64,000 bases of DNA from a virus. The stretch lies in the IMG/VR virus record IMGVR_UViG_3300045684_000013, positions 1 through 64,000 of that record; one strand, 5' to 3'. Both the position numbers and the translations under genes were made by a program. How positions within the stretch are numbered: the first letter of the stretch is position 1; the number at the start of each line of letters is the position of its first letter. Shown in pieces: positions 38,763 through 50,515 of this stretch. The notes under the pieces were generated by a model. That model worked only from the letters and a program-made list of their open reading frames with translations. It ran no database searches and was not told the DNA's origin.

Positions 38763-39199
38763 TGGAAGCAGTAAAAATTGAACATCAGCAATCAGAAGTG
38801 GGTGGCACTTATACTCCACATGAAGCCACGGTAAATGGCACCAACTACCCTGCACAACTGCCTGACAATGACAGGGCAGTGCTGGCCTTGGTTCGTGGTA
38901 AGTTTTATACATTGCCACTGGTTGTCAGGCACGCAGACCGTAGCTGGCAATTTCATAGTTATGGACGATGGAAGTGTATAGAAAATGGCACCAACTACCC
39001 TGCACAACTGCCCGACAATGACAGGGCAGTGCTGGCCTTGGTTCGTGGTAAGTTTTATACATTGCCACTGGTTGTCAGGCACGCAGACCGTAGCTGGCAA
39101 TTTCATAGTTATGGACGATGGAAGTGTATAGAAATTACAGAAAATGTGCTGTCATGGGCTGAATTGCCTAATGAATGGGCTGAAGAAATGAACATCTAA
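38762..39199 (+). CDS. DUF551-like protein with tandem-duplicated module
   Basis: 145 aa from ATG 38762. Two consecutive 50-residue copies of a module (NGTNYPAQLPDNDRAVLALV to SYGRWKCIE) are followed by a short SWAELPNEW tail. The module plus tail resembles the phage DUF551 family, which normally has one copy. The DNA repeats are nearly identical, so duplication is recent. The protein's role is unknown. Confidence 0.6.
   Translation: MEAVKIEHQQSEVGGTYTPHEATVNGTNYPAQLPDNDRAVLALVRGKFYTLPLVVRHADRSWQFHSYGRWKCIENGTNYPAQLPDNDRAVLALVRGKFYTLPLVVRHADRSWQFHSYGRWKCIEITENVLSWAELPNEWAEEMNI
38834..39133 (+). repeat. 150-bp near-identical tandem duplication
   Basis: Copies 38834-38983 and 38984-39133 differ at one visible position, CTGCCTGAC versus CTGCCCGAC, which is silent. 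In-frame duplication inside the DUF551-like gene. Confidence 0.9.
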
Positions 39200-39470: not shown

Positions 39471-40136
39471 ATGAAGGGACCAACAAAACCAAACAAGACC
39501 ACCAGTGCCACGGCTGCTGATATGGTCATGACAAATCCAAGCACAGCAAAGTTCATCATGGATTTCTTTTGGCCATCTGGCAGGGTGCTTGATCCATGCA
39601 AGGGCAGTGGTGCATTTTATGATGCCATTCCTGCACATTGTCTGCCTTCATGGTGTGAAATCACAAAGGGTGTTGACTTCTTTGAACATCTGGAAGCTGT
39701 TGATTGGATTGTGACAAATCCACCTTACAGCATTTTTGATCATTTTCTAAAACACAGCCTGAAGTTGGCACAAAATGTTGTCTTTTTTTGCCCACTGGCA
39801 AAAGCATTCAAGTCAAAGTCAATCATGGACATTGTTGAATCATCTGGCTTTCAGCTGGCAACGGTGATTGATATGGGTGGAGGTGGTCACCATGGCTTCA
39901 ACTTTGGCTTTCCAGTTGGTGCCCTGCACTGGATGAAAGTGCCACAAAGCAGGCCACAGCACCTGAAGGCAGCCTGCAATGATATTCAGTTCAGAAGGAT
40001 TCAACCAGCCGTTGTGAAGTCTTATGGCAGCCTGTGTGGCCTGTGCAGCCTGTGGAATACTGATGAATTTACATGTCAAGAATCAAGGATGCCAGATAGC
40101 AAAGGAAAATGCAGCAGATTTGGTGAATATATTTGA
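39471..40136 (+). CDS. DNA adenine methyltransferase-like protein
   Basis: 221 aa from ATG 39471. SAM-binding motif I is DPCKGSGAF at 41-49 and catalytic motif IV is TNPPYS at 82-87, as in N6-adenine or N4-cytosine methyltransferases. The C-terminal 35 residues hold a Cys cluster (CGLCSLWNTDEFTC). No target-recognition domain is visible and no matching endonuclease is adjacent. Likely protects phage DNA against restriction or regulates replication from the neighbouring origin. Confidence 0.75.
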   Translation: MKGPTKPNKTTSATAADMVMTNPSTAKFIMDFFWPSGRVLDPCKGSGAFYDAIPAHCLPSWCEITKGVDFFEHLEAVDWIVTNPPYSIFDHFLKHSLKLAQNVVFFCPLAKAFKSKSIMDIVESSGFQLATVIDMGGGGHHGFNFGFPVGALHWMKVPQSRPQHLKAACNDIQFRRIQPAVVKSYGSLCGLCSLWNTDEFTCQESRMPDSKGKCSRFGEYI

Positions 40137-40223
40137 AATCAGGTTGCCTTGATTTTGGACATATTTCTGCACACATTTGTGACCCTTGCTTTTTTTTGAT
40201 TCTGTCAGCAAGCTGCGCAAAAA

Positions 40224-40254
40224 AAAAGTGGCCAGCTTGCAACCGTCCACTTTT
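40224..40254 (+). terminator. Possible terminator upstream of initiator gene
   Basis: AAAAGTGG and CCACTTTT can pair around a 15-base loop and end in TTTTG. The loop is long, so confidence is modest. The rest of 40137-40276 holds no convincing gene. Confidence 0.4.
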
Positions 40255-40276
40255 GTTCACTTTCAACCTTAACCTT

Positions 40277-41698
40277 ATGAATTCGCCAAGTAACAAAAAA
40301 AACAACGGAAATGCAAACACTTGTGACCATGCAATTTCAGGCAAAATTGAACACCTGCCACAGCTGCCAAGTCAGTTTGACGCCCTGATTTCCTCCACAT
40401 TTTACGTTGAAATTCATCTGCCAATTGTGCTGAAGGCACAGTTGAAGTGTGTTGGTGTGTCTGAAAAGGCCATCAGGATGCTTGAACTGATTGTCAAATT
40501 AATGGGCAAAGATGGTTTCATTTGGTATGGTTCGCGCATGGTTGGCAAGTTGGTTGGCATCAGCCACAGCAATGTGCAGCAGGCCTTCAATGAACTGGTT
40601 GACCGTGGGCTGATTATTGAAAAGCCAATGTCTGATGAATGGATTCTGCACCAGATTGAAACCTATGCACTGACAATTGGGATGGAACATCCACGGGTGG
40701 TCAGTCTTCAGGCCTTTTCCGTGATGGAATTCAGCAGAAGGCCTTTTGTGAGAAGATTGAATCAAAAGATTGTCAAAACCGTGCAAAGTGGTGGCAATTC
40801 ACACGTGTTTCAGCAGCTGTATGAATTTATGAAATCACTGCCAGCTGACAAGCGAGATGAAAGGCTTTTGTCAATATTGTGCGAAAATTCAGATGTGCCT
40901 GAAAACAGGCACGTGCCTGAAAACAGGCACGTCAACATGTGCCTGAAATCAGACCTAAACTATATAAGTCTTAAAGACTTATATTCTTATTCTTTGGAGA
41001 ATGAAGAAAAGAAGGTTTCTGAAGCAAAAGATGCGGGACATGTGGAGGTGAAAAATGTGAAGCATGTGACAGGCGATCAATGTTTAAACATTGAACCTGA
41101 TGAACAGGTATCTTCAACTAAAAACTTAGTTAGTAGTCATATTTACACACAGCTGCTTCACCCTGACCTGATGGCATATCTGCCAAGCCATGTGAAGGAT
41201 GCGGTTTTTTGCTCTGATGATTTTCTTGATTCAATTTCATCAAGAAAGGGCATTGAAGGCATGCAGAAAGCACGTGGTGGAAAAATGCAGCCTTGGACGC
41301 CAAAGGAAGCATTCAGGGCATCAATGGTGCTGTCAGGGCTGTCAGGTGATGGCAGACAGCCAAGCATGCAGGCAGCTGTCAGAAATTGGGTGGCAAGTTA
41401 TGTCAGGCAGGAAGTCGAAAGAAGCACAAACCCTGCATTTCAAAAATCAATTCAAGCCTGTGGAGGCATCAGGGCAATTTCTTCAGAAGACTTTGCAGGA
41501 CATCTGAAATGGCTGGCTAATGTTTATTTCTTTCAGTGCTATTCAAGAATTTATGACATTGAGCAGGAAGGAAATGAAGTTATTGAAGCTGCATGCCTTA
41601 TGTCATTGATTTCAATGCCAGCTTTACAAATTGTCAGAATGTATCAGAACAAGGTGCAGCGAGCAGCAGCAACAAAAATGAATAAACAGCCGTACTAA
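40277..41698 (+). CDS. Replication initiator protein with internal origin
   Basis: 473 aa from ATG 40277; a longer frame from 40133 is rejected because it passes through the putative terminator. The N-terminal region (about 55-120: KAIRMLELIVKLMG, GKLVGISHSNVQQAFNELVD) is a winged helix-turn-helix, as in phage initiators and primosomal loaders. The middle (residues about 205-220) encodes VPENRHVPENRHV directly over two 18-bp DNA repeats, followed by an AT-rich section, suggesting the replication origin lies inside this gene as in lambda O. The C-terminal part is helical, possibly a helicase-loader contact. Primase/helicase follows. Confidence 0.65.
   Translation: MNSPSNKKNNGNANTCDHAISGKIEHLPQLPSQFDALISSTFYVEIHLPIVLKAQLKCVGVSEKAIRMLELIVKLMGKDGFIWYGSRMVGKLVGISHSNVQQAFNELVDRGLIIEKPMSDEWILHQIETYALTIGMEHPRVVSLQAFSVMEFSRRPFVRRLNQKIVKTVQSGGNSHVFQQLYEFMKSLPADKRDERLLSILCENSDVPENRHVPENRHVNMCLKSDLNYISLKDLYSYSLENEEKKVSEAKDAGHVEVKNVKHVTGDQCLNIEPDEQVSSTKNLVSSHIYTQLLHPDLMAYLPSHVKDAVFCSDDFLDSISSRKGIEGMQKARGGKMQPWTPKEAFRASMVLSGLSGDGRQPSMQAAVRNWVASYVRQEVERSTNPAFQKSIQACGGIRAISSEDFAGHLKWLANVYFFQCYSRIYDIEQEGNEVIEAACLMSLISMPALQIVRMYQNKVQRAAATKMNKQPY
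40895..40982 (+). other. Candidate replication origin (iterons plus AT-rich region)
   Basis: Two head-to-tail copies of GTGCCTGAAAACAGGCAC (40895-40912, 40913-40930), each with 7-bp palindromic arms, then a degenerate third (40939-40954). Downstream lies AT-rich DNA with the 19-bp palindrome at 40964-40982 (ATAAGTCTT A AAGACTTAT). Confidence 0.6.
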
Positions 41699-41725
41699 TT
41701 CAGCATCAACATCAACATCAACCAA

Positions 41726-43840
41726 ATGAATGTATCTTTTTTCAACAATTCAATCAGGAACAGTCAAGTCACTGCACAGGTGCCATTGAAGCGGATTTTG
41801 GATGGAATCAAAGAAGGGCAATGGAAAGCACACGTTGAAGCAGTCAGGCAGGCCAGAACTGAACACGGCAAGAATTCAGCCCAATTCAAGCAAGCAAAAG
41901 AAAATTCACCCAATTTCACCACGTCTGGAACATTTGACAGGGTAAGAAGAAAAGACACCCTTTTGAATCATTCAGGATTTATTGACATTGACATTGATGG
42001 CATTGATGCCAGCCAGCTTGATGACCTGAAAGCAAAAATAATTACTTTTCCGTTTGTGGCAGCTGTTTACACATCCATCAGTGGTCATGGGCTGTGTGCT
42101 GTGTGTTGCGTGCAGCCAAATGCAGAACTTCATGAAACATTTTGCAACACATTGATTGCATATTTCATTGGCAAGGGTGTCAATGGTGTTGATTATTTGA
42201 AAGACTGGTCAAGGGCGCGTTTTATCAGCTTTGACCCTGACTTGATTTTTGCTGAAAATTACAGGCAGTTGCAGCCAGATGACTTGTCAATTGTGGCACC
42301 AGAAATTGACAAAATGCCAGTCAAGGGCAATGGTGACAGGGTGGAATATTACACAGCAGATGAATGCATTGACCATGCATGGCAGTCAGTTGGCAAAAAA
42401 AAGACATGGGAGAAAGGTCACCATTTTGAATATGCTGTTGACTTTATTTTGTACTGCAATGACATGGGTGTGCCAGAAAGTGACGTGCTTTCTCATTTCA
42501 AATCAATTGCACCTGATTATGAAGACGGGCCAAAACTGGTTAAAAGTTATTACAGAAACGCTTCATCAAAGCATGGCAGCAGAAGGCCAGTGAAGAATGA
42601 ATACAAGGGCAATGGTTTCCTGTTCAGTGGGCAGGGTGGTCACACGTCTTTCATCCCCAAAATGTATGATGGCCATGTTGTGGAGGACTTAAAACAATAT
42701 GATCCTGTTTTAGATAAACACAGGATCACGCAGGGCACGCGAATCAGGCCTTTTCCAAGGCTTGTGCAGTATGGCAGTGGTGTTGTTGCGCGTGCTGGTG
42801 ACCATGTTGTAGTAAGCGCACAATCAAAGGCGGGAAAAGGCTATCTATTCAGGAAGCTTATGGCTGGCTTGCTTATGCCATACACTGTCAACAATGGCCA
42901 GCCAATTGAACACCTTTTTGGCTTCACTTTTGGCATCAATCCAAACAATTATGCAATTATTGCTGCTGATACTGAACAAAGTGATGATGATGTGCAGGAC
43001 GTTTTGGATGAAGTGATTGAAGACAGTGGCAGGACATCTGAACCTGATTTTTTTTACATGCTGGCTATAAAAGAAATCCCAAAAAAGGAAAGGGCAGCCA
43101 TGATTGTCAGGGCTGTTCAGCGTGCTGTTGAAAAGCATGGTGGTGTGCATGCACTTTTCATTGATGGCACGGCTGACCTCATTCCTGATGTCAATGATGC
43201 AGAAAAGGTTTCTGAATTATATGATTTACTTTCTGGCATTGCTGGCAGGTATAATTTCCCAATTTTCCATGTCATTCACATGAATCCATCAGCATACGGC
43301 AAAGAACGTGGTCACCTTGGTTCAGAAATGCGCAGAAAATGCGCCACATTGATACGGCTGGAATATGATGAAGAAAACAGGTGTAGTTGGGTTGTTTTCA
43401 AGCTTATGCGAAAGGCAGAACGGGGCATGCAGTTTCTAATTCGTTGGGACATAGAGAAGGGCACATTTGTCAGGGATGATCAGAAAATGCAGCAAATCAT
43501 GTTAGAAAAGGGTAAATTTTCTTATTTGCCAAGACCAGATGACAGTGGAAAATTCATAGATTTGTACAGGCAGGCACTTAACAGAGTTTTTTTACAGAAG
43601 CCATCTGCTTCAATTGATGAAATTTCAGCAGCCATTCTTGAAGACTTGCAAAAAAGCACATGGATTTCTGGAAGCATTTCTGAAAGGGAAAAAAGGGAAC
43701 ATCTGACCAGAATAAGAACAATGAACCTGATTGAGCCAGACAAAGAAAATGATGAAAATTTTGTTTCTGGTTTGCTACTGAATGATGACAGGCAGGATGC
43801 AGATGGTGCAAAATATGTCTGGAATAAACCAACACCATAA
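41726..43840 (+). CDS. Primase/helicase: BT4734-like PrimPol plus RecA-fold ATPase
   Basis: 704 aa, after a CAACATCAACATCAAC leader. Residues 1-200 match the BT4734/VirE N-terminal domain common in Bacteroidota phages and mobile elements: TTSGTFDRVRR, HSGFIDIDIDGID with acidic metal ligands, and WSRARFISFDPD. Residues about 355-560 are a RepA/DnaB-like ATPase with SAQSKAGKGYL as Walker A (Gly instead of the usual Thr/Ser after Lys), FIDGTADL as Walker B near 478, and HVIHMNP. The C-terminus is helical with a winged-helix flavour. Probably primes and drives replication from the nearby origin. Confidence 0.8.
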   Translation: MNVSFFNNSIRNSQVTAQVPLKRILDGIKEGQWKAHVEAVRQARTEHGKNSAQFKQAKENSPNFTTSGTFDRVRRKDTLLNHSGFIDIDIDGIDASQLDDLKAKIITFPFVAAVYTSISGHGLCAVCCVQPNAELHETFCNTLIAYFIGKGVNGVDYLKDWSRARFISFDPDLIFAENYRQLQPDDLSIVAPEIDKMPVKGNGDRVEYYTADECIDHAWQSVGKKKTWEKGHHFEYAVDFILYCNDMGVPESDVLSHFKSIAPDYEDGPKLVKSYYRNASSKHGSRRPVKNEYKGNGFLFSGQGGHTSFIPKMYDGHVVEDLKQYDPVLDKHRITQGTRIRPFPRLVQYGSGVVARAGDHVVVSAQSKAGKGYLFRKLMAGLLMPYTVNNGQPIEHLFGFTFGINPNNYAIIAADTEQSDDDVQDVLDEVIEDSGRTSEPDFFYMLAIKEIPKKERAAMIVRAVQRAVEKHGGVHALFIDGTADLIPDVNDAEKVSELYDLLSGIAGRYNFPIFHVIHMNPSAYGKERGHLGSEMRRKCATLIRLEYDEENRCSWVVFKLMRKAERGMQFLIRWDIEKGTFVRDDQKMQQIMLEKGKFSYLPRPDDSGKFIDLYRQALNRVFLQKPSASIDEISAAILEDLQKSTWISGSISEREKREHLTRIRTMNLIEPDKENDENFVSGLLLNDDRQDADGAKYVWNKPTP

Positions 43841-43901: not shown

Positions 43902-44492
43902 ATGAATTGGAATCAGAACCAGCAGCCACCAGCTGCACAGCCACCAGCTGCACAGTCACCACAGGGCCAATGGAACCAGCCACCAGCACCCGTACAGCCA
44001 CCACAGGGCCAATGGAACCAGCCACCAGCTGCACAGTCACCACAGGGCCAATGGAACCAGCCACCAGCACCCGTACAGCCACCACAGGGCCAATGGACCG
44101 GAAACCAGCAGGCCAACAACAGTGGCGGCGGTTATGATGGCCAAAATAAAAAAACGCATATCGGCAAGGGAAAGCCAGCCAATAGCCAATGGGTTTTGGC
44201 AAACCTGTTTTTCAACATTGCCCAAATTCCTTTGCAATGGATCAGGATGAAGAACAGCACAAACAATCCAAATGTTGAGGCTGCCTTTCAGGCATTCATG
44301 CAGGCACTTCAAAACCTTCAGCAGGTGATCAGTCAGCAAGGTGGTCAATGGGATGGCCCACAGGTCAGGGTGTCAGTGAAGAACATGCGCCAAGCTGACA
44401 GGGCTGGCAACACATTGACCATGTATATCAATGAATTCATTCCACAGCCACAGGGTCAACGCAATCAGGCACAGGGCCAGTGGAACCAGTAG
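43902..44492 (+). CDS. Gln/Pro-rich repeat protein, unknown
   Basis: 196 aa. The first 70 residues repeat the units QPPAPVQPPQGQW and QPPAAQSPQGQW, encoded by tandem ~39-bp DNA units, and look intrinsically disordered. Residues about 82-175 form a compact helical/strand part (KGKPANSQWVLANLFFNIAQ to AGNTLTMYINEF). The tail returns to GQ repeats. Its own promoter and the large terminator after it suggest high-level independent expression. It may be a single-strand DNA-binding or condensate-forming replication protein; unproven. Confidence 0.6.
   Translation: MNWNQNQQPPAAQPPAAQSPQGQWNQPPAPVQPPQGQWNQPPAAQSPQGQWNQPPAPVQPPQGQWTGNQQANNSGGGYDGQNKKTHIGKGKPANSQWVLANLFFNIAQIPLQWIRMKNSTNNPNVEAAFQAFMQALQNLQQVISQQGGQWDGPQVRVSVKNMRQADRAGNTLTMYINEFIPQPQGQRNQAQGQWNQ
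43918..44100 (+). repeat. Tandem Pro/Gln-coding repeats
   Basis: Alternating ~39-bp units built around CACCACAGGGCCAATGGAAC, present four times, encode the Q/P-rich N-terminus of the 43902 protein. Near-identity indicates slippage or recombination. Confidence 0.8.
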
Positions 44493-47244: not shown

Positions 47245-47280
47245 GGCCACAGGGTGATGCCTGTGGCCTTTTTCATTTTT
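47245..47280 (+). terminator. Terminator of cassette A
   Basis: GGCCACAGG and CCTGTGGCC form a perfect 9-bp stem with loop GTGATG, followed by TTTTTCATTTTTT. The same hairpin occurs at 49118 and 50478. Confidence 0.85.
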
Positions 47281-49117: not shown

Positions 49118-49155
49118 GGCCACAGGGTGATGCCTGTGGCCTTTTTCATTTTTTT
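49118..49155 (+). terminator. Terminator of cassette B
   Basis: Identical hairpin to the one at 47245 (9-bp GGCCACAGG / CCTGTGGCC stem) followed by TTTTTCATTTTTTT. Confidence 0.85.
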
Positions 49156-50477: not shown

Positions 50478-50515
50478 GGCCACAGGGTGATGCCTGTGGC
50501 CTTTTTCATTTTTTT
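50478..50515 (+). terminator. Terminator of cassette C
   Basis: Third copy of the GGCCACAGG / CCTGTGGCC hairpin followed by TTTTTCATTTTTT. Confidence 0.85.

Follow-up and report, generated by a model that had tools for sequence, protein, structure and literature searches.

A stretch of about 100 bp in a virus genome, positions 40895-40994, is in our judgement (probability roughly 0.82) a phage theta-replication origin that lies inside the gene of its own initiator, in the manner of the origin in gene O of lambda. The genome is the 66,406-base virus record IMGVR_UViG_3300045684_000013, and the window, by which we mean the whole stretch of DNA analysed, is its positions 1-64,000. Three things were looked for as marks of an in-gene origin and were found: tandem iterons with dyad symmetry inside the reading frame of an initiator, adjacent AT-rich and easily melted DNA, and an adjacent gene for a helicase, loader or primase. 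The features are collected in Table 1. The same layout recurs in the initiator genes of other phages, which we come to below.

Table 1. Features of the candidate origin and its neighbourhood, in window coordinates.
Feature	Position	Strand	Description
Likely replication initiator gene	40277..41698	+	473 residues from ATG 40277; matches phrog_345 and phrog_19658
Putative winged helix-turn-helix	40487..40624	+	Residues 71-116; weak matches only
Iteron 1	40895..40912	+	GTGCCTGAAAACAGGCAC, exact copy; 7-bp inverted arms around AAAA
Iteron 2	40913..40930	+	Identical to iteron 1 and abutting it; 7-bp inverted arms around AAAA
Iteron 3, degenerate	40939..40956	+	14/18 match to GTGCCTGAAAACAGGCAC
Candidate DNA unwinding element	40945..40994	n/a	Ranked by nearest-neighbour energy as second weakest among the 50-bp duplexes of the window
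23-bp dyad	40962..40984	n/a	ATATAAGTCTT-A-AAGACTTATAT; 11-bp arms, 1 centre base
Primase/helicase gene	41726..43840	+	704 residues; BT4734-like primase N domain fused to an AAA_25 ATPase/helicase-like domain

Iterons and weak duplex within a likely initiator gene

The iterons, the AT-rich stretch and the 23-bp dyad all fall inside the initiator open reading frame (ORF), and the iteron array is in frame. The mechanical ORF opens at TTG 40133; we take the ATG of Table 1 as the probable start. An earlier note on this DNA had described two perfect 18-bp palindromic iterons. The two exact 18-bp copies are there, but the palindromes are interrupted rather than perfect, because in each repeat AAAA separates the two 7-bp inverted arms. 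The third, partial copy that it listed is also present, with an intact left arm, a largely preserved centre and a mostly decayed right arm, and translation of the ORF agrees with its statement that the array encodes VPENRHVPENRHV.

These repeats are not chance. Dyads with 7-bp arms number 113 in the window, and third-order Markov simulations (n = 30) averaged 95.7; the iteron pair is the only one among the 113 to be repeated, that is, to recur with the same 7-bp arms and spacing at most 200 bp away; none of the 30 simulations gave any. With up to three mismatches allowed, the 18-mer matches twice in the window where 0.18 matches would be expected. We also used a score that presupposes no particular iteron sequence and asks only for two mutually similar dyads 16-32 bp apart. 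By this measure the iterons reach 32, the maximum possible, and rank first in the whole record; the runner-up, at 28, lies in simple tandem repeats. The two VPENRH copies use identical codons, which has a probability of 0.010 if codons are drawn independently; this agrees with a recent duplication or with selection at the DNA level. The exact 18-mer turns up in one further viral contig (L004), as a single copy in GC-rich DNA with no recognised replication gene, and we took it to be a chance match.

Beyond the iterons the DNA becomes AT-rich, as the earlier note had it: 78% AT over 40957-41010 against 56% window-wide. Only one 50-bp duplex of the window is weaker than the one that starts at 40945. 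The palindrome reported there had been given as 19 bp (40964-40982); the dyad exists, but it is 23 bp long. A dyad with 11-bp arms arose in 6 of 200,000 local synonymous recodings, and of 2,000 recodings of the whole gene, one had such a dyad at any place in it. The 23-bp dyad may act as an additional binding site or as a point of cruciform extrusion. About 80 bp past the AT-rich stretch, still in the initiator gene, stands an uninterrupted 18-bp palindrome (41077-41094, TCAATGTTTAAACATTGA). The DnaA-box consensus TTATNCACA does not occur in the window.

The primase/helicase gene begins 27 bp past the initiator stop. Its primase domain matches PF08800 (expectation value, E, 8e-13), and the protein matches the phrog_18375 primase/helicase (E 3e-15); the AAA_25 match (E 3e-4) is below the curated cut-off of that family. 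This protein is likely the partner recruited to the origin.

The same layout in other phages

The origin of lambda, in gene O, is the nearest comparison. Like the window it has 18-bp iterons with inverted arms and an A-rich centre; they are annotated at 39034-39118 and spaced by 20-24 bp. Counted by hand, the window iteron agrees with lambda iteron 4 at 12 of 18 positions and with iteron 1 at 10 of 18. The iteron is new with respect to lambda, as had been claimed, in sequence but not in design. The tandem array starts at 39% of the gene in lambda O and 44% in the window, and in both an AT-rich stretch follows the array and a gene with helicase function comes next. There are also differences. 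Lambda has four iterons, the window two perfect and one decayed, and these two abut (18-bp spacing); the window protein has 473 residues and, unlike O, no Phage_rep_O match; the next gene encodes a primase/helicase in place of P; and there is a strong dyad in the AT-rich part. Two lambda iterons with the AT-rich region are the minimal fragment for unwinding, according to PMC7466680.

That same source describes origins inside initiator genes in lambda and the Stx phages. In the latter (P27, 933W), additional iterons appear as additional residues of the O protein, so the earlier idea that repeat number can be seen in the protein, true here, was already in print; those origins, unlike ours, have six iterons of nearly lambda's sequence. 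SPP1 oriL, in gene 38, likewise has direct repeats and an AT-rich unwinding element inside the gene of an origin-binding protein (PMC6316719). SPP1 differs in that it has another origin, oriR, and encodes its loader and helicase in genes of their own; we found no second array of comparable score in the record. Another close system is that of Flavobacterium phage elemoE (MT497078), with three dyad iterons of about 22 bp (the third seen by eye) in a replication gene, AT-rich DNA adjoining the array, and then a BT4734-type primase/helicase. Its iteron sequence is another one, and its protein is unrelated to the window initiator by BLASTP (best E 0.84). In the literature searched, including PMC9144972, we recognised no report of an in-gene origin in a Bacteroidota phage; coverage of subscription papers was thin, and we do not claim absence.

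We applied the dyad-array score to 27 loci with an initiator gene: the window, lambda and 25 others. Fourteen of 19 viral loci were scanned. L039 was dropped, its protein being 100% identical to that of elemoE (represented by L005), as were L045, L046, L050 and L054, whose identity and coverage equal those of L044, L044, L041 and L053, respectively. Nine phage records were taken among the matches listed (60 of 177) and picked for taxonomic spread before their repeats were looked at; the Harreka locus came from a primase search. The score recovered the annotated lambda iterons. In 21 of the 27 loci (19 of 25 without window and lambda) the initiator gene contained the best array of the locus, and that gene makes up about 15% of the locus in most cases. 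Every equal-length control tile of the same locus was beaten by 20 of the 27 genes (18/25), where a hand calculation gives about 4 of 25 for genes that behave as random tiles. Of the 156 control tiles, 15 scored at least as high as their own gene. Most arrays sit at 34-46% of gene length, many with 22-bp spacing. Off-position arrays were found in L053 (5' end of the read frame, 1%), L052 (83%) and L066 (62%). Shuffles, here first-order Markov samples and not exact dinucleotide shuffles, matched the score at least 9 times in 200 in five genes (L008, L041, L043, L058, L066). The 25 cases are not independent, because many of the scanned genes are related to one another. With this in mind, the earlier comparison with the lambda O gene and its origin holds up: the anatomy matches, and the position of the array recurs. 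The cleanest comparison array (score 30) is in the replication gene of Pseudoalteromonas phage vB_PspP-H6/1 (L062:2789-2828), where two identical 18-bp dyads lie 22 bp apart.

By analogy with lambda, we infer how such an origin would fire. A dimer of the initiator would bind each iteron through its N-terminal winged helix, one protomer to each 7-bp arm. The two abutting iterons and the decayed third would seed a wrapped complex resembling the lambda O-some, and this complex would melt the adjoining AT-rich 50 bp. The primase/helicase from the next gene would then be recruited, replacing lambda P and host DnaB, and replication would start.

The initiator and the points that weigh against an origin

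The protein had been called a winged-helix initiator. Its top profile matches are indeed replication initiators, but the winged-helix and O-like parts of the call are marginal. It matches phrog_345, 'replication initiation O-like', at E 4e-4 over residues 41-164, in its N-terminal part only, and lambda O matches the same profile at E 5e-17. The match to phrog_19658, 'replication initiation protein', has E 1e-3 and covers residues 71-116; DnaD-like and other initiator profiles match more weakly, and MarR_2 at E 0.015. Context suggests that the protein works like an O-type initiator, which stops short of membership in the lambda O family. Two single-sequence AlphaFold models were unusable (mean predicted local distance difference test scores 36 and 44), and a PDB sequence search gave two matches, a designed repeat protein that is no winged helix-turn-helix (E 5e-4) and one regulator (E 0.7).

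Several results count against an origin of this kind or limit the case for it. The Pfam family Phage_rep_O (PF04492) is absent from the initiator's matches at E up to 1, and lambda O scores 5.7e-36. The putative winged helix-turn-helix ends about 90 residues before the iterons, whereas the lambda O domain ends at residue 115 and adjoins them. A whole-protein search of sequence collections brought up no relative of the initiator, and covariation across relatives is therefore unavailable. Queries with the N-terminal or winged helix-turn-helix part (nothing below E 2 in one search) and with the C-terminal part gave none either, nor did 21 records with a related terminase, from 28 such loci found, or primase and Sak4 queries of viral_contigs. 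Aligned by hhalign to the elemoE-type alignment, the N-terminus of the initiator gave a probability of 5% (E 0.007); with so weak a profile alignment, the recurrence of the layout holds for phage initiators generally, and not for proven homologues. In the scan, 7 of the 27 genes, elemoE and (clearly) Harreka among them, failed to beat their control tiles. Finally, the GC-skew switch point that the earlier note had proposed as a check did not appear at 41 kb: the skew rises monotonically, with a detrended minimum at about 25.5 kb. GC skew is weak evidence either way, because nearly all long genes are on one strand.

An initiator lineage without detectable relatives may have arrived at the lambda layout independently, even to the 18-bp dyad centred on AAAA(C), with a recent in-frame duplication of the iteron setting origin strength and the length of the initiator's linker together. 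We regard this more elaborate history as unlikely.

Other explanations of the repeats

Repeated dyads to which a winged-helix protein binds are typical of operators, and autoregulation would suit a site within the regulator's own gene. The dyads might thus serve a phage repressor, or the initiator itself, in controlling transcription of the replication operon, with no part in an origin. Their place in mid-gene, 618 bp after the start, speaks against this, as does the adjoining weak duplex, which an operator would not lead one to expect. No promoter-like site was found on the + strand in 39800-42000, by a sigma-70 consensus only, which may not suit the host. We consider an operator quite improbable.

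We give still less credence to a pair of RNA hairpins that would serve in attenuation, processing or intrinsic termination. Either copy could form a hairpin, and there is a terminator-like call on the minus strand at 40932-40911. That call, however, is on the strand opposite the neighbouring replication genes and has a poor T run; terminator-like sites are no commoner than in shuffles (2 found, 2.4 expected), and nothing matched Rfam at the gathering threshold.

Equally remote is the idea that part of a variable linker was duplicated in tandem, neutrally and in frame, with the dyads there by chance: the copies are identical and abutting, and one 7-bp dyad is only moderately unlikely in the peptide of a single copy (2,823 of 200,000 random synonymous recodings, 1.4%), with duplication yielding the second free, but the dyad, a diverged third copy, the rare 11-bp-arm dyad and the second weakest duplex would all have to fall together midway through a replication gene.

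Genome and probable host

The first 144 bases of the record are repeated by its last 144 with one mismatch, and on this overlap the genome is probably complete and circularly mapping, at about 66.3 kb. Relatives of the primase are only distant and come from phages of marine Bacteroidota; those with a named host all belong to phages of Flavobacterium, Nonlabens (Persicivirga), Olleya and Cellulophaga, which makes a host among the Bacteroidota probable.

Elsewhere in the window there are further repeats. Three identical 24-bp hairpins (GGCCACAGGGTGATGCCTGTGGCC) at 47245-47268, 49118-49141 and 50478-50501 are followed by T runs, and the roughly 50 bp downstream are near-identical between copies; they are probably a repeated terminator-plus-promoter cassette between genes. 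A 150-bp tandem duplication (38833-39134, 99% matches) doubles a 50-residue unit in a small ORF. Proline/glutamine-rich repeats (unit up to 81 bp, perfect) occupy 43923-44097, where the gene that follows the primase/helicase begins.

Significance

The arrangement is a known one, from lambda, the Stx phages and SPP1, and the window appears to add a clean further example with its own version of the iteron. As an origin candidate it is very clean and compact. A simple scan finds such origins without knowledge of the iterons, and it succeeded with the majority of the phage initiators scanned, whose hosts come from several bacterial phyla. It would permit a large-scale study of how initiators and the iterons inside their genes change together.
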